Source of the DNA: an uncultured Porticoccus sp.
GTDB lineage: Bacteria > Pseudomonadota > Gammaproteobacteria > Pseudomonadales > Porticoccaceae
DNA: 14,495 nucleotides
Reading direction: 5' to 3'
NCBI GenBank assembly: GCA_950063125.1
Contig: CATLZI010000022.1
Span: 1-14,495, forward strand
Of this stretch, positions 1,222 to 14,495 are shown in pieces. The notes beneath the pieces are model-generated. The model made no database searches and had not been told where the DNA came from. It worked only from the letters and a program-made list of their open reading frames with translations. Within the stretch, counting starts at the first letter, position 1. Each line of letters starts with the position of its first letter. The position numbers and the translations under genes were made by a program.

Positions 1222-2598
1222 ATGACGCCAAACAGTCTTAAAGAGACAAACCGCATTTTACATTACCAGAGCCTGTTCCGCCTTCTGGTAGGTTTTGCCG
1301 GTATTTTATCGCTACTCACATTCCATCGTGGACTGGAGCATGAGCTGATTGTCACGTTGCCCCTGCTGGTGACCATTGGCTATATTCTGTCTTCCCATTT
1401 TGTATTGCAGCGCATCTCGCCGTCATCGCGGCCCGGCGTCGGGACGGTTTTATCCTTTATTGATGCGCTGCTGCTCGGTGGCCTGATCTGCCTGATCGAC
1501 CTGAGTCTGCTACCGTCACTGCTGTTGATTATTACGCTGCAGTTTAACGGAATAATTGGTGGCGGTTTCAGGAAATTGCGCAATGACAACCTGGCGCTGT
1601 TGCTCGGCATTGCAATAACCGCACTCCTGAGATTTCCCCAATGGACACTTTCGGCAGACATCCTGACCGGTCTGCCACCACTGTTGGCGCTGGGGATATA
1701 TATCTGTATTTACGGCGCCAGCAGTTCCAGGGAAATCGCAACCTTGGGAGAGAAACAGAAAGAGCTGGAAAAAACACAGGTTCAACTGAAACTGAGAAAT
1801 TACCGCCTGTCAAAATATCTCTCCCCAACCCTGCTGAAGGCCATCCAGTCGGGCAAAGACGTCAAGCTGGAAACCCACCGCAAAAAACTGACCGTATTTT
1901 TTTCAGACATCAAGGGTTTCAGCGAACTGGCCGAAGAACTTGAGGGCGATGTGCTGACCAGCCTGCTGAACAACTACCTGTCTGAGATGTCGCAAATTGC
2001 TCTGCAGCACGGCGGCACCATCGACAAGTTTATCGGCGATGCCATTATGGTTTTCTTTGGCGACCCCACCAGTAATGGCGTAAAAGCCGACTGTACGGCC
2101 GCAGTATCAATGGCCATTGCCATGAAAAAACACATGAAGGAATTGCAACGTCGCTGGGCCAGTCAGGGCATAGAAACACCCATGGAAATACGCATGGGCC
2201 TGAATACCGGCTACTGCGCCGTGGGCAACTTTGGCACGGAGAACCGGCTGGACTACACCCTGCTCGGCACCGAGGTGAATCTGGCCAGCCGGCTGGAGTC
2301 TGCCGCAGAGCCCGGCGAGATTCTGATTTCACACGAGACCTACTCACTGGTGAAAGACCAGATCATGTGCCGCGACAAGGGCGATATTCAGGTCAAGGGC
2401 TATCAACAGCCGGTACGAATTTATTCTGTGGTGGACTTCCGCAAAAATATGGGAAGTGACCAGAGCTACTTCGAGCACATGACAGACGGCTTTTCTTTCT
2501 ATATGGATATGGACAGAATCCGCCACTACGACCGGGATCGAATCATGAAGTCCCTGATCGAAGCCGCCGCCCAACTGAAAAACAAGAAAAACCACTGA
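1222..2598 (+). CDS. Membrane-anchored class III adenylate cyclase
   Basis: This 458-residue protein has about six hydrophobic helices in residues 15-166, a short linker helix rich in Glu, Lys and Leu (175-200), and a class III cyclase catalytic domain at about 221-406. Metal-binding aspartates are D229 (FFSDIKGF) and D273 (DKFIGDAIM). K269 and T350 (LLGTEVN) occupy the two purine-selecting positions and fit ATP rather than GTP. N353 and R357 (VNLASR) are the transition-state residues. It should therefore make cAMP at the cytoplasmic membrane face. The helical N-terminus vaguely recalls the six-helix module of PilS; that is an impression only. Residues 407-458 form a charged C-terminal extension with GFSFYMDMDRI. 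The start has only a weak AGG just upstream, but the next Met would delete helices. It converges on queF with 16 bp between stops and no terminator. Confidence 0.93.
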   Translation: MTPNSLKETNRILHYQSLFRLLVGFAGILSLLTFHRGLEHELIVTLPLLVTIGYILSSHFVLQRISPSSRPGVGTVLSFIDALLLGGLICLIDLSLLPSLLLIITLQFNGIIGGGFRKLRNDNLALLLGIAITALLRFPQWTLSADILTGLPPLLALGIYICIYGASSSREIATLGEKQKELEKTQVQLKLRNYRLSKYLSPTLLKAIQSGKDVKLETHRKKLTVFFSDIKGFSELAEELEGDVLTSLLNNYLSEMSQIALQHGGTIDKFIGDAIMVFFGDPTSNGVKADCTAAVSMAIAMKKHMKELQRRWASQGIETPMEIRMGLNTGYCAVGNFGTENRLDYTLLGTEVNLASRLESAAEPGEILISHETYSLVKDQIMCRDKGDIQVKGYQQPVRIYSVVDFRKNMGSDQSYFEHMTDGFSFYMDMDRIRHYDRDRIMKSLIEAAAQLKNKKNH

Positions 2599-5215: not shown

Positions 5216-5379
5216 CCAAAGAACATGACCGGCTCAGCGGGGGTGATAGTCTAAATGACTTTGCCCGGCGTTTGTCGGTTAACACCAAAAAACCCGGCGC
5301 ATTGGGCTGACATCAGGGGGGCGGCGATACTGCAACTCGAACACAGCGACGAGCGAGTCCACTATCATCAAGGCAAGGA

Positions 5380-5409
5380 TTGACCCACCAACCACTCTGG
5401 GCCTATTCT
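5380..5409 (+). promoter_or_regulatory. Weak candidate promoter of the signalling operon
   Basis: TTGACC (5380-5385) and TATTCT (5404-5409) are 18 bp apart, with one and two mismatches from the sigma70 consensus. It would give a leader of about 100 nt before the leader ORF at 5514. It is the best match I found upstream of the operon but is not strong, and another sigma factor could be used. A sigma54 element was looked for and not found. Confidence 0.22.
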
Positions 5410-5513: not shown

Positions 5514-5597
5514 ATGTTGCCCGACTTGACTGCACTATCAAATAACCGGGAAATACCGAGAGTCGGAACCAATCCAATTTCCGGGGTTGCCCCATGA
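5514..5597 (+). CDS. Putative 27-residue leader peptide coupled to histidine kinase
   Basis: This short ORF starts at ATG 5514, five bases after an excellent Shine-Dalgarno (AGGAAGGA, 5501-5508), and ends in TGA at 5595-5597, sharing ATGA with the kinase start. The peptide begins MLPDLTALSNNREIPRVG, has no membrane segment, and resembles nothing I recognise. The kinase start itself has only a GGGG (5583-5586) at its ribosome site, so ribosomes finishing the leader could restart on the kinase. It shows no run of one amino acid that would suggest classical attenuation. It may therefore serve as a translation-coupling device rather than encode a functional peptide. Confidence 0.45.
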   Translation: MLPDLTALSNNREIPRVGTNPISGVAP

Positions 5598-6739
5598 GCA
5601 CCAACAGGCCCGACGACGAATACGGTCAAAACACGGCTCTCCCACCCTCTTACGAACCGGGAAGAAAATGGTCACTGCGTTGCCGCGCACTGCTGATCAC
5701 CGCCGTCTATGCCATTGTGGCCAGTTTGTGGATCTATGCCTCTGACCACGCACTGATGGCATTGGCAGCCGATACCGAAATATTCAGTCGCTGGAGCGTG
5801 TACAAGGGGATTGGATTTGTCCTGGTCACCTCGCTGTTATTACTGCTGCTGATCTGGTGGGCCTTCGGTGCCCTGGAGAAAGCGTATACCGACCTCAAAA
5901 CACTGAACCAGAATCTGGAAAAGAGGGTCAGGGCACGCACGCACGAGCTGGAATCGGTGGCCACCCGCGCGGAAACCGCAGACCAGTTGAAGTCATCTTT
6001 TCTGGCCACAATGTCCCACGAGTTACGGACCCCACTCAACTCGATCATCGGTTTTACCGGCATTATCCTGCAGGGAATGGCGGGGCCCATCACCCGGGAA
6101 CAGAAAAAACAACTGGGCATGGTCCGCAGCAGTGCCCGCCACTTGCTGGATCTGATCAACGACGTTCTAGATATCTCCAAAATCGAAGCCGGGCAGTTAC
6201 AGATCCGACGGGAGCCTTTTGACCTGACCGACGCAATCGACCGAGTTATCGGGAGTGTTCGGCCACTGGCAGAAAAGAAAGGTCTGTCACTTCACAGGGA
6301 TATCGCAGCCGGTTTATCCACCATGCGCAGTGATCGTCGACGGGTTGAACAAATTCTGCTGAATCTGTTGAACAACGCCATCAAATTCACGGACCAGGGC
6401 AGTGTCGCACTGCATGTGGAGCTGGAACCGGCATGGATACCCCCAGCTACGGTCGATGATGCAAATAACGGTACTTCACCACGCAGTGAGCAACCGGTAA
6501 CGGCTGTTCGATTCCAAGTCACCGATACCGGCATTGGTATCCGACCGGAAGATATAGAGCAGTTATTCAAACCTTTCAACCAGGTCGACAGTGGCCTGAC
6601 CCGTCAACATGACGGCACCGGGTTGGGATTGGCCATCTGCAGCCGCTTGACCGACCTGCTCGGCGGCACGATCAAGGTGCACAGTCAATGGTCACAGGGC
6701 AGTGAATTTACCGTGATATTGCCACTGGAGCTACCATGA
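5594..6739 (+). CDS. Membrane sensor histidine kinase
   Basis: This 381-residue kinase has two membrane helices (about 32-50 and 72-93) separated by only about 20 residues outside the membrane, then a coiled coil (about 95-130), HisKA (133-200) and HATPase (245-381). H142 in SHELRTP is the phosphoacceptor. N257 and N261 form the N-box, DTGIGI (311-316) G1, and GTGLGLAI (341-348) G2. The N-terminal pair carries the pattern WIYASDHAL, then YKGIGFVLVTSLLLL, which recurs at the start of many PAS, GGDEF and kinase sensors; its ligand is unknown. An insertion rich in Pro, Asn and Ser (281-300) sits between the N and G1 boxes. The start shares ATGA with the leader ORF and the stop shares ATGA with the response regulator, its probable partner. 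Confidence 0.95.
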   Translation: MSTNRPDDEYGQNTALPPSYEPGRKWSLRCRALLITAVYAIVASLWIYASDHALMALAADTEIFSRWSVYKGIGFVLVTSLLLLLLIWWAFGALEKAYTDLKTLNQNLEKRVRARTHELESVATRAETADQLKSSFLATMSHELRTPLNSIIGFTGIILQGMAGPITREQKKQLGMVRSSARHLLDLINDVLDISKIEAGQLQIRREPFDLTDAIDRVIGSVRPLAEKKGLSLHRDIAAGLSTMRSDRRRVEQILLNLLNNAIKFTDQGSVALHVELEPAWIPPATVDDANNGTSPRSEQPVTAVRFQVTDTGIGIRPEDIEQLFKPFNQVDSGLTRQHDGTGLGLAICSRLTDLLGGTIKVHSQWSQGSEFTVILPLELP

Positions 6740-7134
6740 AAGAACCCCGCCTCGATATTCTGGTCATTGAAGACAATGAACTCAATCGCTACCTGCTGAC
6801 TTTTTTACTGGAACACCGCGGCCACCGCGTCAGATCAGCCACCGACGGACCGGCAGGCATTGCACTGGCCAAAGCGCTGTTGCCCGACCTGATTCTGCTG
6901 GATATACAATTACCGACCATGCATGGGTATGAGGTGGCGGCAACCCTGCGCGAGGTCGAGTCAGTGGGCAATATCCCCATTATCGCAGTGACCTCCCACG
7001 CCATGGCGGGTGATCGCGAGAAAGCACTGGCAGCGGGCTGTAGTGGTTATATCGAAAAGCCCATCGACCCCGATACTTTTGTTGATGAGGTGGAAAGTGT
7101 CTGCTGGCAGTCTCCGGACATGGAAAGCAGCTGA
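6736..7134 (+). CDS. Single-domain response regulator (receiver only)
   Basis: This 132-residue stand-alone receiver domain has E12-D13 in the acidic pocket, phosphoacceptor D56 (LILLDIQLP), T86 (IIAVTSH) and K108 (YIEKP), so all signalling residues are present. It has no output domain, as in DivK- or CheY-like shuttles, and would act through protein contact or as a phosphate carrier in a relay. GGAG (6727-6730) five bases before the ATG supports the start. Its ATG overlaps the kinase stop by four bases, and its TGA overlaps the next ATG by one base. The adjacent membrane kinase is the likely donor; the hybrid kinase downstream is a possible partner. Confidence 0.95.
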   Translation: MKEPRLDILVIEDNELNRYLLTFLLEHRGHRVRSATDGPAGIALAKALLPDLILLDIQLPTMHGYEVAATLREVESVGNIPIIAVTSHAMAGDREKALAAGCSGYIEKPIDPDTFVDEVESVCWQSPDMESS

Positions 7135-9197
7135 TGTCGCGAATCCTCATCGTTGATGACCGGGAAGAAAACCTCTATTACCTGGAGACGCTGCTCATCA
7201 GCCACGGTTATCAGGTCGATACTGCCAGCCAGGGCAACGAAGCACTGGAGAAGGCGCGCAACACCCCTCCCGACATGATTGTCTCTGATCTGTTGATGCC
7301 CATCATGGACGGTTACACGCTGCTCCAGCAATGGAAATCCGACTCCCGCCTCTCGCATATCCCATTCATTATCTACACCGCCACCTACACCGAGGAAAGT
7401 GACCGTGAGCTGGCCCTGGATCTGGGTGCCGATGCCTTTATCCTCAAGTCTGCCGAGCCTGAAGCTTTTCTCAAAGTCCTCTGGCAGATACAGGATCAAC
7501 CCCATATCGCCAAACCTATTGCGACCAGTCCCGTCGGCCTCGATGAAAAGACAATTCTGAAGACCTATAACCAGACACTGGTTCGCAAACTGGAAGAAAA
7601 ATCCCGTCAATTGGAAATCGCCAACCGGGCTTTACAGAAGGACATTGCCCGCCGGGAAGCCACGGAAGCGGCGCTTCGGGTCAGCGTGGAGCGATTCCGG
7701 TTATTGGCCCAGGCCACCAGTGATGCCGCCTGGGACTGGGATATGCTCAGTGACAATCGCTGGTGGAATGATGGCTTCACACAGCTCTTTGGCCACCGTC
7801 GCGCCGACTCACAACCTGACGACGCCGCCTGGGCTGCGCTGATTCACCCCGATGATCGGGAGGAGGTGCTGGCCGGACGCCGACTGGCCATTTCCCAAAA
7901 TGGCAACAATCATTGGTCCGCCAGCTATCGTTTCAGATGTGCAGATGGTCATTGGGCGCAGGTGGAGGATCGCGGCCATCTGATTCGCGATGACCACGGC
8001 ACCGTCATCCGGATGGTCGGTGGCATGACCGATATCACAAACCGCATCTCAATGGAAAAACAACTTCACCGGGCACAACGGCTGGAGGCTCTGGGTATGC
8101 TGACCGGCGGGGTCGCCCATGATTTCAACAACCTGCTCACGGTGGTGATGGGCAACGCGCAAATTCTGGAAGACACGCTGCACGACCACCCCGACCATCA
8201 AAGGCTGGCAAGAATGATCACAGAAGCAGCTGAACGCGGAGCGGATCTGACCCACCGCCTGCTGGCATTTGCCCGGCAACAGAGCCTCACCCCGAGGGCT
8301 GTAAACCTGAATCAACTGGTACTCGGCATCGAGCCGCTACTGCAGCGAACACTGGGCAGCAATATTGTAATCACCCTGGAACTCGATTCCCGGCTGCCGG
8401 CAGTCTACGTGGACCCTTCAGAACTGGAACACGCGCTGCTGAACCTGTGTGTCAACGGACGCAATGCCATGCCACTGGGCGGCGACCTGACCATCTCAAC
8501 ACGTGCTACACAGACGAGCGACTCAACCGAGCTGGATTTGAGTCGTGGCCAATATGTCGCGTTATCGATAACCGATACGGGCACCGGCATAGCCCCCGAG
8601 CTTGTGGATCGGTTGTTTGAGCCTTTCTTCACCTCTGCAGAACAGGGTGCCGGTACGGGGCTGGGTTTGGCAATGGTACACGGGTTCATCAACCAGTCTG
8701 GCGGACAGATCAGTGTCCACTCAAAACCGGGGGATGGCAGCACCTTCCTGCTGTATCTGCCTGTCTCCGACCAGCCACCGACACCGCTGCCGGTTGACGA
8801 GAAACCATCTGAAAATATCGGCGGCAATGAATCAATCCTGTTGGTAGAGGACGACCACCTGGTACAAAATGTTGTTAAACACCAACTAGAATCACTGGGT
8901 TATCAGGTCATCACGGCAACCGATGGCCAGCAGGCACTCAATCTGTTGCGCGAAGGCAATGCGGTTGACCTGCTGTTCACCGATTTGCGCATGCCCGGTA
9001 TGGGCGGCAGGCAGCTTGCCCAGCTGGCCAGTGAGCAATACCCCCACCTGAAGATACTGTTCACCACCGGATTTGCCGGCCACGACGATGAAGGCGACGG
9101 GCTGCAAGACAACACTAACCTCATCAGAAAACCCTACCACCGGTCTGAACTTGCCCAATGCCTGCGACGGGTGCTGACGCAGCAGGACAACACATGA
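7134..9197 (+). CDS. Hybrid histidine kinase REC-PAS-HisKA-HATPase-REC
   Basis: This 687-residue soluble protein has no membrane helix. Domains in order: REC1 (1-120; D8, D9, phosphoacceptor D52, T82, K105), a coiled coil (145-185), a PAS_3-type PAS/PAC (187-303, with WDWDMLSDNRWWNDGF), HisKA (315-380; H329 in GGVAHDFNNLL), HATPase (425-545; N441, DTGTGI 481-486, GAGTGLGLAM 505-514), and REC2 (566-680; E572-D573-D574, D617, T644, K666). All phosphotransfer residues are intact. The N-terminal REC suggests its kinase is switched by upstream phosphorylation, plausibly from the membrane kinase. The AHDFNNLL-type H-box belongs to the class commonly joined to a C-terminal REC. GGAAAG (7122-7127) precedes the start, which overlaps the previous stop as TGATG. 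Its C-terminal half resembles that of the big kinase at the window's end. Confidence 0.96.
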   Translation: MSRILIVDDREENLYYLETLLISHGYQVDTASQGNEALEKARNTPPDMIVSDLLMPIMDGYTLLQQWKSDSRLSHIPFIIYTATYTEESDRELALDLGADAFILKSAEPEAFLKVLWQIQDQPHIAKPIATSPVGLDEKTILKTYNQTLVRKLEEKSRQLEIANRALQKDIARREATEAALRVSVERFRLLAQATSDAAWDWDMLSDNRWWNDGFTQLFGHRRADSQPDDAAWAALIHPDDREEVLAGRRLAISQNGNNHWSASYRFRCADGHWAQVEDRGHLIRDDHGTVIRMVGGMTDITNRISMEKQLHRAQRLEALGMLTGGVAHDFNNLLTVVMGNAQILEDTLHDHPDHQRLARMITEAAERGADLTHRLLAFARQQSLTPRAVNLNQLVLGIEPLLQRTLGSNIVITLELDSRLPAVYVDPSELEHALLNLCVNGRNAMPLGGDLTISTRATQTSDSTELDLSRGQYVALSITDTGTGIAPELVDRLFEPFFTSAEQGAGTGLGLAMVHGFINQSGGQISVHSKPGDGSTFLLYLPVSDQPPTPLPVDEKPSENIGGNESILLVEDDHLVQNVVKHQLESLGYQVITATDGQQALNLLREGNAVDLLFTDLRMPGMGGRQLAQLASEQYPHLKILFTTGFAGHDDEGDGLQDNTNLIRKPYHRSELAQCLRRVLTQQDNT

Positions 9198-9412
9198 TAT
9201 ATCACGATTGCCTCAACCCCGGAAAACCGGCAGTCGCCCGGCGGTCAACAACCACTGTCTCCCTGCAGACCAAACAGCTTTCGAGCGGACTTGATACAAC
9301 CCGCACAATACCGCATGCTGGTTTGGACTATGGTGGATTTGATCACGGATTATCTTTCTGGCCAGACACGTCTCTTCGCCAGACAAACATACGAATAACA
9401 AAGGTCTGGTAA
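9194..9412 (+). CDS. Small ORF of 72 codons, unknown function, overlapping both neighbours
   Basis: I do not recognise this product. It fits the spacing rule of the operon exactly: its ATG overlaps the hybrid kinase stop as ATGA, its TAA overlaps the REC-EAL ATG as TAATG, and AGGA (9184-9187) lies six bases before its start. The predicted 72-residue peptide starts MIYHDCLNPGKP, is polar and rich in Thr, and has no clear membrane segment, signal peptide or known motif. Against a real gene, all four isoleucines use ATA and several other codons are uncommon in the neighbours. If it is not coding, the 214 bp would be the only real spacer in the operon. It may couple translation from the kinase to the phosphodiesterase. 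Confidence 0.4.
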   Translation: MIYHDCLNPGKPAVARRSTTTVSLQTKQLSSGLDTTRTIPHAGLDYGGFDHGLSFWPDTSLRQTNIRITKVW

Positions 9413-10617
9413 TGACATTAAGGCCCCCCGATAAACGACTGCTGGTACTCGATGATGATGCCGATGTCAGCTTTACCATCTGCACCATTGCCAAAAGTGC
9501 CGGTCACGATGCCCGCGCCACAACCAGTGCCGACGAGTTTCTTCACCTGGTTGCAGACTGGGCCCCTTCACATCTGATAGTCGACCTGGCCATGCCGGAA
9601 GTGGATGGTGTCGAGATACTGAAACGTCTGGCCGATGTCGCCTTTGATGGCGCCGTGATTGTTGCCAGCGGTCTGGGCAACAGGGTGCTGGAGGCTGCGG
9701 GTCGAGCCGCCGCAGAAAATGGTCTCAATGTCTCGGGAGTGCTGGGCAAGCCCTTTACCCCCAACCGACTCCGCGAGCTGCTCAGCGACAAGACCCATCA
9801 GCCTCCACTCAAGGCCCCCGAAAACTGGCCACAGGAATTTCAGGTCACCCGGCAAACCCTCACCGCGGGACTCGCTGAACAGCAAATAGGGGTCTATTAC
9901 CAGCCCAAAGTCTCCTGTGCCACAGGAAAATGCATTGGCTTTGAGGCGTTGGCCCGATGGCACCACCCCGATATTGGCATCATCATGCCCGACCGCTTCA
10001 TTCCGCTGGCGGAAGAAACCGGTTTGATCGGTGAGCTGACCCGGCAGGTATTTGGCCAAGCTCTTCGCTGGTTTGCCGAATCGTTTCGCGGCACCGCCAG
10101 CACCATCGCCCTGAACATGTCCGCCAGGGTGATAGCGGACGCCGGCCTATCCGAGTGGCTGATGACCCAGTGTCAGGTGCTGGGTCTGGACCCTCACCAG
10201 ATTGTGCTTGAGATTACCGAAAGCAGCAGTATGGAAAACCCGATCATGATGCTGGAATTTCTGACCCAGTTCCGTATCAAGGGTTTCAGCCTGTCGATTG
10301 ATGATTTCGGGGTGGGCTACTCATCCCTGATTCAGCTGGCACGATTGCCGTTCTCGGAAATGAAAATTGACAAAATGTTTGTCATCTCGGCACCGCAGTC
10401 CGAGGAATCACAGAAAATTGCCGCGGCGATCGTCGGCCTGGCCAGGGCACTGGGGCTACTGGTGACCGCCGAAGGCGTGGAAGACCAATGGACACTGTCT
10501 TTCCTCGCCGAGATTGGTTGCGATACAGCCCAGGGATATTTTATTGGCCGGCCGATGCCACCGGATGCCACCCTCACCTGGCTGATGAGCCCACCGGCAT
10601 CCAACGGGGTTCGTTAA
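9412..10617 (+). CDS. REC-EAL response regulator, c-di-GMP phosphodiesterase
   Basis: This 401-residue protein has an N-terminal receiver (9-122; D14, D15, phosphoacceptor D58 in LIVDLAMP, S86 in place of the usual Thr, K113) and a C-terminal EAL domain (about 145-395). The EAL catalytic set is complete: E178 (FEALARW), N235 (ALNMSAR), E267 (LEITES), D297-D298 (SIDDFGVGYSS), K318 (MKIDK), E354 (AEGVED) and Q374 (TAQGY). It should hydrolyse c-di-GMP to pGpG in the cytoplasm under phosphorylation control. It has no GGDEF domain. AAGG (9401-9404) lies seven bases before the ATG. It is the only enzymatic output in the visible operon. Its stop overlaps the next ATG as TAATG. Confidence 0.96.
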   Translation: MTLRPPDKRLLVLDDDADVSFTICTIAKSAGHDARATTSADEFLHLVADWAPSHLIVDLAMPEVDGVEILKRLADVAFDGAVIVASGLGNRVLEAAGRAAAENGLNVSGVLGKPFTPNRLRELLSDKTHQPPLKAPENWPQEFQVTRQTLTAGLAEQQIGVYYQPKVSCATGKCIGFEALARWHHPDIGIIMPDRFIPLAEETGLIGELTRQVFGQALRWFAESFRGTASTIALNMSARVIADAGLSEWLMTQCQVLGLDPHQIVLEITESSSMENPIMMLEFLTQFRIKGFSLSIDDFGVGYSSLIQLARLPFSEMKIDKMFVISAPQSEESQKIAAAIVGLARALGLLVTAEGVEDQWTLSFLAEIGCDTAQGYFIGRPMPPDATLTWLMSPPASNGVR

Positions 10618-13600
10618 TGGCTATCCCCGGAGACATCCTTTTCGAATGCCACCCGGATCCAATGTGGATCTATGATCTGGAAACTCTGCGCTTTCTTGAC
10701 GTCAACGATGCCGCCATCGCCAAATACGGCTATTCCCGGGACGAATTCCTCGCCATGACTATCGAAGATATTCGACCAACGGAAGATGTTCCCAGGTTAC
10801 TCGAAAATATCGCCAGTTCGGTTGTGGGTTTTAATGACGCAGGCATCTGGCGCCACCGCCTCAAGTCCGGGGAGATTATCTCGGTCGTGATCACCGCACA
10901 TACACTTGACCATGATGGCACCAGGGCCGAGTTGGTCTCCGCCCGGGATGTCACCCGGTTACTGGCACTGGAAGAAGATAAAGCCAACTACCTGAATCAG
11001 GAGCAGGTTTTACGGCAGGAGGCCGAGGCCTCGGCCCATCTGTTTCAGTCCCTGTTCGAGTCGGCGCCCGGTAAGTTTCTGGTCCTGACCCCCGACGAAT
11101 TCAAAATTGTCGCCGCCAGCGATGCCTACCTCAATGCCACCAGCACCCGCCGCCAGGACATCAAGGGCAGACGAATGTTTGATGTTTTCCCCGATGACCC
11201 CGATGACAGCAAAGCCGACGGCGTCCGGAATCTACGGGCCTCACTGGAACAGGTCAAAGTGACCGGCATGTCCGATATTCTGCCGGTTCAGCGCTACCCC
11301 ATCCCCCGCCCGAAAGACCAGGGCGGCGGATTCGCCGAGCACTTCTGGAGTTGTATTCACACCCCCATTAAAGGGGCCGACGGCAACATTGTGTTCATTA
11401 TGCTCCGGGCCGAGGATGTCACAGAATTTGTCTACTCGGCCGAGGGGCGACTGGCAGCCTCCGGATCCACTGTCACGGAGAAACACGACGCTGCCCAGCT
11501 GGAGCTGGATATCCTGTTGCGTTCCCGCGAGTTGAAAATTGCCAACAGTCGCCTGCAGGAACAGGAAGCCAGTCTGCGCACAGCCAAACGACTGCTGAAG
11601 CTGGGTATATGGAAACTCAATCTCGACAGCGATGTGCTCAGTTGGTCTGATGATATCTACGAAATGTACGATATCGCCCCCGAGGACTTTGGCCACTGCT
11701 TTGATGCCTACCTGGGATTAATGCACCCGGATGACCGGCAGGGTCTGGTAGACGAGTTGAACAGTTTTCTGGAAAAGCCCGATGCGCCGCTGCAGTTCCG
11801 TCACAGAATCCCCAAGCCTGATGGCAGCATTATGCACGTTCAGGGCATGGGCGAGCTGGCCAATACTGCCGATGGACGCCTGCTCACCGGGGTGGTACAG
11901 AACATTACCGATCAGGTTCTGGCCGACAGTCAATTGGCCGAGGCCTCCAGCCTGCAACGGATTGCAGGGCAGGCAGCCCATTTGGGAGGCTGGCGTTTTG
12001 ACCTTCAGACAAAAACCATGAAATGGTCAATAGAGACCGCCGACATTCACGATGTCGGGCCGGACTTTCAACCCACACTGCAGGAAGCCATCAACTTTTA
12101 CCTGCCGGAATATCGCAACCGCTTTCGACGCATCTTTGATGCCTGCGCTGAACGGGGTGAATCCTTCAGTGAGGTGATGCCGAAGATTACTGCCACCGGC
12201 AGACCCATCTGGGTGCGCAGCACCGGTGAAGCTGAATACGACGCCGAGGGCAACATCTGTGCTGTGCGCGGTGCCTTCCAGGATATTACCGATCACATCA
12301 ACGCACGGGAACAATCGAAGACGTTATCTCAACAGCTGGAACAGACCCTGGAGAGTATGAGCGATGGCTTCTTCACACTCGACAGGGACTTCAATTTCAC
12401 CTTCGTCAACGACGAATTTTGCCGAGTCCTCAACAAACGCCGGGATGCGCTGATCGGCAACAATATCCGGCAATGCTTTCCGGCTGCTGCGAATTCCGCT
12501 TTCCGCATTGAGTATGAGGCTGCCCTTGCCACACAGACGACACGTACGTTTACCCAGCATTACAGCGAACTGAATCTCTGGCTGCGGGTAAAAGCCTATC
12601 CCTCGATCGACGGACTCGCCATCTATTTTCAGGATGTCACCCAGGAGCGGGCCAGAGAGCAACACCTGCGACTGCTGGAATCCGCCGTCTCCCGGCAAAA
12701 TGATATTTTGCTGATCACGGAAGCAGAGCCCATGGATGAACCTGAGGGGCCCAGGATCATCTATGTCAACGATGCCTTCGAGCGACGCACCGGGTATCGC
12801 CGTGAGGAGGTCATCGGCCAGACGCCGCGCTTCCTGCAGGGTCCAAAAACCCAGCAGGCAGAGCTGGATCGCATCCGTGAGGCCCTCACCCATTGGCAAC
12901 CGGTGCGCTCTGAACTGATCAACTACACCAAAAGTGGTGATGAGTTTTGGCTGGAAATAGATATTGTCCCACTGGCGGACGAAACCGGCTGGTTTACCCA
13001 CTGGGTTGCAGTAGAGCGGGATATCACTGACCGGAAAATGGCCGAGCAGGCTGTCAGACAGAGCGACGAGCGGTTTCAACTGGTCACCAAAGCCACCAAC
13101 GATGTGATCTGGGACTGGGATCTGGTTGAGGACAGCCTGTGGTGGAACGACAACCTGAGAACCATGTTCGGCCACGACCCGGCACAGATCAGTAACAGTT
13201 TGCAGTTCTGGGTCGAGCATATTCATCCGGATGACCGCAATAGTCTGCTCTCAGAACTCTATGCCGTGTTTAACAGCGACGCACTGACCTGGCAGGCGGA
13301 ATACCGGTTTATCCACGCCAATGGCAAGGCACTGTCCGTGGTGGATCGGAGCTTTATTACACGGGACACCTCAGGCAAGGCCATACGAATGGTTGGCAGC
13401 ATGGTGGATGTCACCGAACTGCAGGAAATGGATGAACGGCTACGCCAGTCACAGAAACTGGAAGCGGTTGGCCACCTCACCGGCGGCATTGCCCACGACT
13501 TCAACAATCTGCTCACTGTGATATTGGGCAACGCCGAATTCATGCAGGAGCAGCTCACCGATCAGCCCGATCTGAAACGGCTGGCAGAAATGACTGTCAC

Positions 13601-14495
13601 GGCAGCGGAGAGAGGAGCGGAACTCACCAACCGTCTGCTCGCCTTTGCCCGTCGTCAGGCATTGCAACCCAGGCGGGTGAACATCAATAAACTGGTGACC
13701 GACACCCTGGGGTTATTAAAAAGAGCCCTCAACGAAGATATTGAATTGACGTTTGTCGATACCGGAGAACTGTGGACCACCGAAATCGACCCAGGCCAGC
13801 TGGAAGTGGCACTGCTCAATCTTGCCATCAATGCGCGGGATGCCATGCCAGAGGGTGGCAGGCTGTTGATTGAGACGGCCAACACGCTGCTGGATGAGGC
13901 CTATGTACAGGATCAGGTGGACGTGACCGCCGGTGAGTATGTGCAGGTATCTGTATCCGACAGCGGCACCGGCATGGCTGCCGATACTCTCAGTCAGGCC
14001 TTCGATCCGTTTTTCACCACCAAAATGATGGGCAAAGGCAGCGGTCTCGGTCTCAGCATGGTGTATGGTTTTGTCAAACAATCCGGCGGACATGCCAGGA
14101 TTTATTCTGAAGAGGACGAAGGTACCACAATCAGACTCTATTTCCCGCGAACGGGCGCAACCGACGAGGTTCCCTATGAAACACCCCAGGAGATTGAACC
14201 CAGAGGTGGTTCAGAGCATATTCTGGTAGTGGAGGATGACGATCAGGTGAGGACCTATGTCACCAACCTGCTGAAGAGCCTTGGTTACCGGGTCACAGCT
14301 GCCCGATCTGGCGCAGAGGCGCTGGATATACTGACAGAATACCAGGATATTGACCTGTTATTTACCGATGTGGTGATGCCGGGAGGTATCAACGGTCGAC
14401 AACTGAGCGAGCAGGCGCTGAGCATCCACCCCGACATGAAAGTATTGTTCACCTCCGGCTACAGTGAAAATGCCATTATTCACAATGGTCGCCTG
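10617..14495 (+). CDS. Seven-PAS hybrid histidine kinase, truncated by window end
   Basis: The frame is open from ATG 10617 to the last base (1,293 codons, no stop), with GGGG at 10606-10609 as ribosome site. There is no membrane helix. I read seven PAS-type domains: about 5-115, 140-275 (with FPDDPDD and VRNLRASLEQV), 317-436, 445-562, 568-680, 686-808 (LOV-like fold), and 813-937. HisKA follows (H960 in GGIAHDFNNLL), then HATPase (N1072, DSGTGM 1115-1120, GKGSGLGL 1139-1146), then a receiver (E1206-D1207-D1208, D1251, T1279) cut before its conserved Lys. PAS6 has GQTPRFLQG, lacking the photoactive Cys of true LOV domains. Coiled coils join PAS2 to PAS3 (295-325). It is a cytoplasmic multi-input sensor whose own REC may pass phosphate on; REC-EAL immediately upstream is a plausible target. 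Confidence 0.95.
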   Translation, partial: MAIPGDILFECHPDPMWIYDLETLRFLDVNDAAIAKYGYSRDEFLAMTIEDIRPTEDVPRLLENIASSVVGFNDAGIWRHRLKSGEIISVVITAHTLDHDGTRAELVSARDVTRLLALEEDKANYLNQEQVLRQEAEASAHLFQSLFESAPGKFLVLTPDEFKIVAASDAYLNATSTRRQDIKGRRMFDVFPDDPDDSKADGVRNLRASLEQVKVTGMSDILPVQRYPIPRPKDQGGGFAEHFWSCIHTPIKGADGNIVFIMLRAEDVTEFVYSAEGRLAASGSTVTEKHDAAQLELDILLRSRELKIANSRLQEQEASLRTAKRLLKLGIWKLNLDSDVLSWSDDIYEMYDIAPEDFGHCFDAYLGLMHPDDRQGLVDELNSFLEKPDAPLQFRHRIPKPDGSIMHVQGMGELANTADGRLLTGVVQNITDQVLADSQLAEASSLQRIAGQAAHLGGWRFDLQTKTMKWSIETADIHDVGPDFQPTLQEAINFYLPEYRNRFRRIFDACAERGESFSEVMPKITATGRPIWVRSTGEAEYDAEGNICAVRGAFQDITDHINAREQSKTLSQQLEQTLESMSDGFFTLDRDFNFTFVNDEFCRVLNKRRDALIGNNIRQCFPAAANSAFRIEYEAALATQTTRTFTQHYSELNLWLRVKAYPSIDGLAIYFQDVTQERAREQHLRLLESAVSRQNDILLITEAEPMDEPEGPRIIYVNDAFERRTGYRREEVIGQTPRFLQGPKTQQAELDRIREALTHWQPVRSELINYTKSGDEFWLEIDIVPLADETGWFTHWVAVERDITDRKMAEQAVRQSDERFQLVTKATNDVIWDWDLVEDSLWWNDNLRTMFGHDPAQISNSLQFWVEHIHPDDRNSLLSELYAVFNSDALTWQAEYRFIHANGKALSVVDRSFITRDTSGKAIRMVGSMVDVTELQEMDERLRQSQKLEAVGHLTGGIAHDFNNLLTVILGNAEFMQEQLTDQPDLKRLAEMTVTAAERGAELTNRLLAFARRQALQPRRVNINKLVTDTLGLLKRALNEDIELTFVDTGELWTTEIDPGQLEVALLNLAINARDAMPEGGRLLIETANTLLDEAYVQDQVDVTAGEYVQVSVSDSGTGMAADTLSQAFDPFFTTKMMGKGSGLGLSMVYGFVKQSGGHARIYSEEDEGTTIRLYFPRTGATDEVPYETPQEIEPRGGSEHILVVEDDDQVRTYVTNLLKSLGYRVTAARSGAEALDILTEYQDIDLLFTDVVMPGGINGRQLSEQALSIHPDMKVLFTSGYSENAIIHNGRL

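Follow-up and report, generated by a model that had tools for sequence, protein, structure and literature searches.

Contig C22 (CATLZI010000022.1) of an uncultured Porticoccus sp. was analysed over its entire length of 14495 bases, referred to here as the window; the source genome (GCA_950063125.1) is a draft of 330 contigs and is 78.5% complete. The window carries a signalling operon of five genes, A, B, C, E and F, which on balance is best explained as a lineage-specific block for the control of cyclic di-GMP (c-di-GMP) in marine Porticoccus, with a core formed by the response regulator E and the kinase F, an additional input formed by A, B and C, and a presumably light-regulated cyclase encoded beside them. 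In many bacteria, c-di-GMP decides between swimming and surface life. If this explanation is right, one marine gene block sets light against several signals in the control of this messenger. The parts are known and their arrangement is new; interest is added by the neighbouring phytochrome gene and by relatives whose site is empty or half erased.

All five genes are encoded on the forward strand. A (5594..6739) is a histidine kinase with HisKA at residues 133-200, HATPase at 247-379, H142 and, judged by eye, two hydrophobic stretches close to the N-terminus; B (6736..7134) is a lone receiver domain with D56; and C (7134..9197) is a hybrid kinase of the order REC-PAS-HisKA-HATPase-REC with D52, H329 and D617, these three proteins being assigned by Pfam. 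E (9412..10617) is a response regulator in which a receiver precedes an EAL domain, and is a predicted c-di-GMP phosphodiesterase. F (10617..14495) is a hybrid kinase with multiple PAS domains followed by HisKA, HATPase and REC (H960, D1251); it has about 1320 residues in relatives and is cut by the contig end, which truncates the protein and its receiver in the window. A preliminary description of this DNA, made from the sequence, had listed seven open reading frames (ORFs): a leader, these five genes and a small ORF D between C and E. All are located where it had placed them, the six junction strings and the eight residues that it named are correct, and its count of three HisKA/HATPase cores, five receivers and one EAL domain is matched by the Pfam hits, among which, as it had said, the operon's proteins show no Hpt, GGDEF or DNA-binding domain.

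Orthologous A-B-C-E-F genes occur in the window and five congeners, which means that the conserved gene order proposed as a check is found within one Porticoccus sub-lineage, in 6 of 17 genomes of the genus (the carriers). Among 112 genomes of the family, A was found in six, all of them carriers (E <= 1e-60), and C in eight (E <= 1e-120), namely the six carriers plus G005 and G069, where the match to C is a kinase beside an E homologue. The carriers are close kin, with u3 being 99-100% identical in the five where it was found and 75-90% identical in non-carriers. In G077 the operon falls on two contigs, and the contig of G078 starts inside the leader. In G073 (L033 5953-7228 and 7623-9790), A and C each contain a frame change, accompanied by a locally repeated stretch, that interrupts the gene and reflects either an assembly fault or decay.

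The junctions between the genes had been described as overlapping throughout, and this depended on ORF D (9194..9412, forward strand, 72 aa), which is judged not to be a gene on the grounds of its frame lengths and substitution pattern. The frame opened by its ATG varies between the six carriers, with lengths of 72, 47, 66, 66, 66 and 7 residues; the 72 are those of the window, where a 4-nt length difference from the other five shifts the frame, whose end then falls within the TAATG over E. Variable sites over 9194-9300 are distributed 11/12/17 by codon position in the frame of D, as against 57/37/214 in C and 46/28/152 in E as the coding reference, and so few third-position changes have a binomial P of 0.0006 under the coding pattern. 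D was therefore rejected as a coupling gene, which leaves C and E separated by 214 nt. With D discarded, three of the four gene-to-gene junctions overlap: A-B (ATGA) and B-C (TGATG) in all six carriers, and E-F by 1 nt in all six, reading TAATG, TAGTG or TGATG. In a 400-kb sample of the congener G071, simple ORF calling gives 215 same-strand neighbours no more than 300 nt apart, of which 36 (17%) share 4 or 1 nt, the longest run being two; three overlaps in four junctions exceed this background, yet are not extraordinary. As translational coupling is nearly abolished at gaps of about 20 nt according to PMC10666635, the 214-nt gap means that A-B-C and E-F are probably two groups, each coupled separately. 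It was a chance ORF that made every junction seem to overlap, and the fixed stoichiometry that had been deduced for the whole set of genes does not follow.

The C-E spacer (9198..9411) is not uniform. Over five genomes, the fraction of invariant sites is 0.602 in its drifting 5' half and 0.793 in its 3' half, which is retained near the level of coding DNA (mean of 0.841 in 62-nt windows); the part conserved at the DNA level is 9301-9411. A higher conservation than that of coding DNA was rejected, as 871 of 3146 coding windows are at least as invariant as a 62-nt block picked by eye (9329-9390; 0.887 over the five genomes), which stands out only against the spacer's 5' half and third codon positions. 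Strong matches to the 3' part lie only before E in the six carriers, among the matches listed for the 112 family genomes; a dispersed repeat was rejected, the other matches listed being no longer than about 36 nt with E >= 0.0104. The sole Rfam hit in the window is a tRNA, and an RNA element in the spacer was rejected as well, since six stretches (five of 127-131 nt, one of 81 nt) gain nothing in folding over shuffled sequence (z between -0.78 and 0.94). The 3' part may be a regulatory or 5' untranslated element. Just 5' of E, at 9362-9409, there are two direct copies of CCAGACA and an inverted GGTCTGG; the first copy reads CCAAACA in one of the six genomes and the other repeat copies are unchanged in all six. 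These repeats could be a regulator site or a hairpin at the ribosome-binding region. It is very improbable that D, or a 22-aa frame in the 3' part, encodes a fast-evolving small protein linking C and E: the 22-aa frame is open in all six carriers and ends 13-16 nt before E, and D reaches 66 aa in three relatives, but D is only 7 and 47 aa long in two others and neither frame shows a third-position excess, the variable sites of the 22-aa frame being 4/2/3 by codon position (nine sites only).

The grouping of E with F is also seen outside the carriers. At 17 loci of E homologues that were opened there (L039-L043 and lower hits of the E search were left aside), the immediate neighbour of the homologue is a hybrid kinase gene with a receiver in ten cases, nine of them on the same strand; one further locus has an adjoining kinase without a recognised receiver, and neither type adjoins in the remaining six. 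In a tree of 24 kinase cores, the core of F groups with five of the ten adjoining kinases (L037, L038, L145, L152 and L154) with a support of 100/98, and the core of C falls outside this group, distant from that of F. The E homologues of L037, L038 and L145 also fall with the E of the window in the E tree; both trees used four of the six carriers, G073 and G077 being left out. The comparison points to a pairing of E with a kinase that is recurrent and not strictly vertical, and the recurrent type of partner kinase is that of F, the gene downstream of E. The linear wiring from A through B and C to E that had been proposed is accordingly not the best supported, as F-type kinases recur by E homologues and A was found only in carriers. 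A dedicated Hpt relay is not evident either: the operon contains no Hpt by Pfam, in a genome that is 78.5% complete, and the open frames that hold above-cut-off Hpt matches in the six carriers are 827-1930 aa long, except for one of 139 aa in G078. Because the operon lacks Hpt and the carriers' matches, bar that of G078, lie in large frames, a direct transfer from H960 of F to D58 of E would be favoured. One PAS domain of F (window 12672-13079, residues ~686-821) is LOV-like and matches a blue-light photoreceptor family. Photoactive LOV domains have the motif NCRFLQ, and a photoactive LOV in F was rejected, with TPRFLQ or TPRLLQ at this position in all six copies.

Pfam places Response_reg at residues 11-124 of E and EAL at 149-381, with D58 as the phosphoacceptor. 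The motifs EAL (178), LNMS (234), EITES (267), DDFG (297), MKID (317), AEGVED (353) and QGYF (374) align with those of MucR and RocR, so that the EAL residues which we take to be catalytic are present, as the preliminary description had it. RocR (3sy8) aligns with residues 53-388, and the best NCBIfam match is PvrR (NF052596), with 233.1 bits against a cut-off of 580, which leaves E below the PvrR equivalog. Copies of E are 93-96% identical in the five congeners; the four nearest named relatives are three from Porticoccus and one from a Cellvibrionales metagenome-assembled genome (MAG), and Pseudohongiella and related MAGs have homologues at 60-65% identity. Homologues from other families of the order are 35-61% identical; at E <= 1e-70, the order-wide search found matches to E in 29 of 293 genomes, of which three are carriers and 26 lie outside the genus, loci of 12 of these having been opened. 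E and its closest kin are REC-EAL proteins of 398-430 aa without a GGDEF match. This sets them apart from longer REC-EAL-GGDEF proteins of the same order, E homologues at 44-49% identity with 711-733 aa, seven of eight of which match GGDEF in a profile search and some of which adjoin genes of the type PAS-histidine kinase-REC. Among the E homologues, EAL reads ESL in L036, L037 and L038 and ECL in L146, with DDFG intact in all four and EITE intact in L036-L038; their activity may differ.

As a predicted REC-EAL phosphodiesterase within a hybrid-kinase network, E resembles the RocR/PvrR type of Pseudomonas. PMC12051241 describes a branched Roc network with RocR and Hpt proteins, and PMC3842833 describes PvrS as kinase and RcsC as relay plus phosphatase. 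The present operon differs in having neither a DNA-binding regulator of the RocA type nor Hpt among its Pfam hits, and in its kinases, which are the PAS-rich F and C plus the separate kinase A with the lone receiver B.

In relatives, the operon ends at F and the next gene lies on the opposite strand, tail to tail. In three of the five relatives (L032, L034, L035) this gene encodes a PAS_2-GAF-PHY-GGDEF protein, which matches the diguanylate cyclase of PDB 6et7/5llw over nearly its full length (E = 1.4e-140) and is predicted to have red-light-regulated diguanylate cyclase activity. The only PHY match in the genome of the window is on contig C184, where the gene is cut at the contig start and its GGDEF is truncated. 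L032, L035 and C184 have all four motifs (N-terminal Cys, DIP, PRxSF and GGEEF), and L034 has them except for DIP, for which no match was seen. C184 aligns 328-330 nt past the point that matches the window's end on L032, L034 and L035, and because of this placement, some 330 nt beyond the window, the phytochrome gene probably adjoins F in the window's own genome too. Remnants of its 3' end directly after F, 305 nt in L044 and 125 nt in L033, suggest that the gene was lost by deletion in these two carriers. PHY was found in four of the 20 genomes searched, that is, in four of six carriers and none of 14 non-carriers (Fisher P = 0.003, the carriers being one lineage). The phytochrome as a general partner of E was rejected, as other E loci have different neighbours. 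Extension to the right, which had been suggested as a check, thus leads to a GGDEF gene next to F in this lineage. The view that c-di-GMP hydrolysis is the sole output holds inside the operon, where EAL is the only output domain, and fails for the block as a whole. With 21-32 GGDEF matches per carrier genome, the locus is one of many c-di-GMP inputs.

The domain order PAS-GAF-PHY-GGDEF, the near full-length alignment and the motifs liken this protein to PadC (IsPadC, PDB 5LLW), whose architecture, as given in PMC9587094, is that of the gene next to F in relatives. That source describes PadC-EAL, in which the EAL partner is fused within the same protein, whereas the phytochrome gene here converges on a multi-kinase operon in which REC-EAL is a protein of its own. 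The literature searched, which covered few subscription papers, yielded neither an account of PadC encoded next to such an operon nor a paper combining 'Porticoccus' and 'c-di-GMP'. The gene after the phytochrome matches part of a heme-oxygenase model. In G077, another large GAF/PAS protein (L034 9029-11918) is encoded past the heme-oxygenase-like gene, and a GGDEF match comes later on this contig; the block content therefore differs between species.

The block is located between the gene of an ABC-transporter ATPase and a tRNA-Gly/tRNA-Glu pair, on the 3' side of tRNA-Gly. Seven of the 11 non-carriers of the genus have the ABC permease and msrB on one contig, and in all seven, each of which was compared, the site has two tRNA genes and no operon. 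The two were identified as tRNA-Gly and tRNA-Glu by ARAGORN in two of the seven, and the same sequence was seen by eye in the others. The interval between the ATPase and msrB matches is 506-636 nt in non-carriers and 10.2, 10.3 and 12.8 kb in those three carriers whose contig spans both flanks. On the left, the block is bounded at approximately 5247..5262, the final stretch common with non-carrier congeners; this string is present in four of four carriers and two of four non-carriers scanned.

A mechanism can be outlined from these parts. E and F would form the core, with F, a multi-PAS hybrid kinase, sensing cytoplasmic signals and phosphorylating the receiver of E at D58; phosphorylation would switch on the EAL phosphodiesterase and lower c-di-GMP, and F's own receiver might act as a sink or modulator. 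The translationally coupled A-B-C, comprising a membrane kinase, a single receiver and a hybrid kinase, may be a second input block which adds a membrane signal and tunes E or F, perhaps by competition for phosphoryl groups. Several kinases would then act on one network, by analogy with the RocR and PvrR systems. The translation of E-F would be uncoupled from that of A-B-C, the conserved element before E probably setting a separate expression. The PadC-type phytochrome-cyclase, presumed to be a red/far-red-sensitive maker of c-di-GMP, would oppose E as the multi-signal breaker. It is proposed tentatively that both halves constitute a heritable make/break unit for c-di-GMP, in which the phytochrome-cyclase makes and the REC-EAL protein removes the messenger, gained or kept as 10-13 kb at the tRNA pair. 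If so, up to three kinases and many PAS sensors would drive E, and a single locus would compute light against other signals, some species having lost the phytochrome half. Natural pairs with and without this half, together with the empty-site congeners, make the contribution of each half testable.

Several observations weigh against a control block of this kind. Since the carriers are close kin, the co-occurrence of the genes counts as a single evolutionary event. Two of the six carriers lost the phytochrome and retained the operon. Only positions 2-94 of 204 in the heme-oxygenase model are matched, NCBIfam gives no match, and in L035 the heme-oxygenase-like gene (16604-17269, genome G084) has an in-frame stop; chromophore supply in G084 may differ. 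Seven of the 17 E loci are without an adjoining hybrid kinase, the other five adjoining kinases lie outside the F group, the trait of having an adjoining kinase is unclustered on the E tree (as low a value in 308 of 500 shuffles), and the E homologues of L152 and L154 are placed away from the E of the window though their kinases group with F. The spacer also shows no consensus sigma-70 promoter, so that a single transcript with an untranslated gap is possible.

The older picture is that of one tightly coupled operon with a linear relay from the membrane kinase A through B and C to E at fixed stoichiometry, for which the same-strand gene order retained in carriers, the A-B, B-C and E-F overlaps in all six and the promoter-like site before the leader speak. 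This picture is nevertheless improbable, given that D is unconserved and leaves the gap between C and E, that A occurs only in carriers while E homologues elsewhere adjoin other kinases, and that the operon offers no Hpt for a transfer from the receiver of C to E. The spacer that divides A-B-C from E-F may instead separate two neighbouring systems sharing their location alone, A-B-C signalling elsewhere and E-F being an independent two-component phosphodiesterase; pairs of E and a kinase without A-B-C at the other opened loci and the distance between the kinase cores of C and F fit this idea, which is judged rather unlikely, as the two groups stay together in every one of the six carriers, and on the same strand wherever the contigs show it, although these carriers are close kin. 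A serious possibility, short of a probable one, is that the phytochrome-cyclase and the operon came to the tRNA pair together or successively as a hitchhiking island, with no mutual action. The empty site with two tRNA genes in the seven non-carriers examined, the deletion of the phytochrome gene in two of six carriers that kept the operon, the different neighbours of E-kinase pairs elsewhere and the many GGDEF matches of each carrier genome all agree with such an island, while opposing enzymes of one messenger standing side by side in three relatives, and by placement in the window's genome, argue against it.

Upstream of A, a leader ORF of 27 aa (5514..5597, forward strand), whose stop overlaps the start of A, is of uncertain coding status. 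Its start, an upstream purine stretch and the ATGA stop are kept in the window and three relatives, the four genomes examined whole (the contig of G078 starts inside the leader, and G077 was left out), with one in-frame 3-nt difference among them. There is no third-position excess, the differences by codon position being 7/5/3 between window and L035 and 0/1/2 between window and L044. A promoter-like site, TTGACC-18-TATTCT, lies 5' of the leader on the forward strand (5380..5409); the window and three relatives share it, at positions -211 to -215 relative to A; two such sites were found in the region against 5.1 expected by chance, which is no excess. The region 5' of the operon contains a tRNA-Ser (207-297), a nitroreductase, a class III nucleotide cyclase, QueF and a two-gene ABC-2 transporter. 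The class III cyclase (Guanylate_cyc, window 1222-2598), a few genes upstream of the operon, is 98-99% identical in the three carriers compared.

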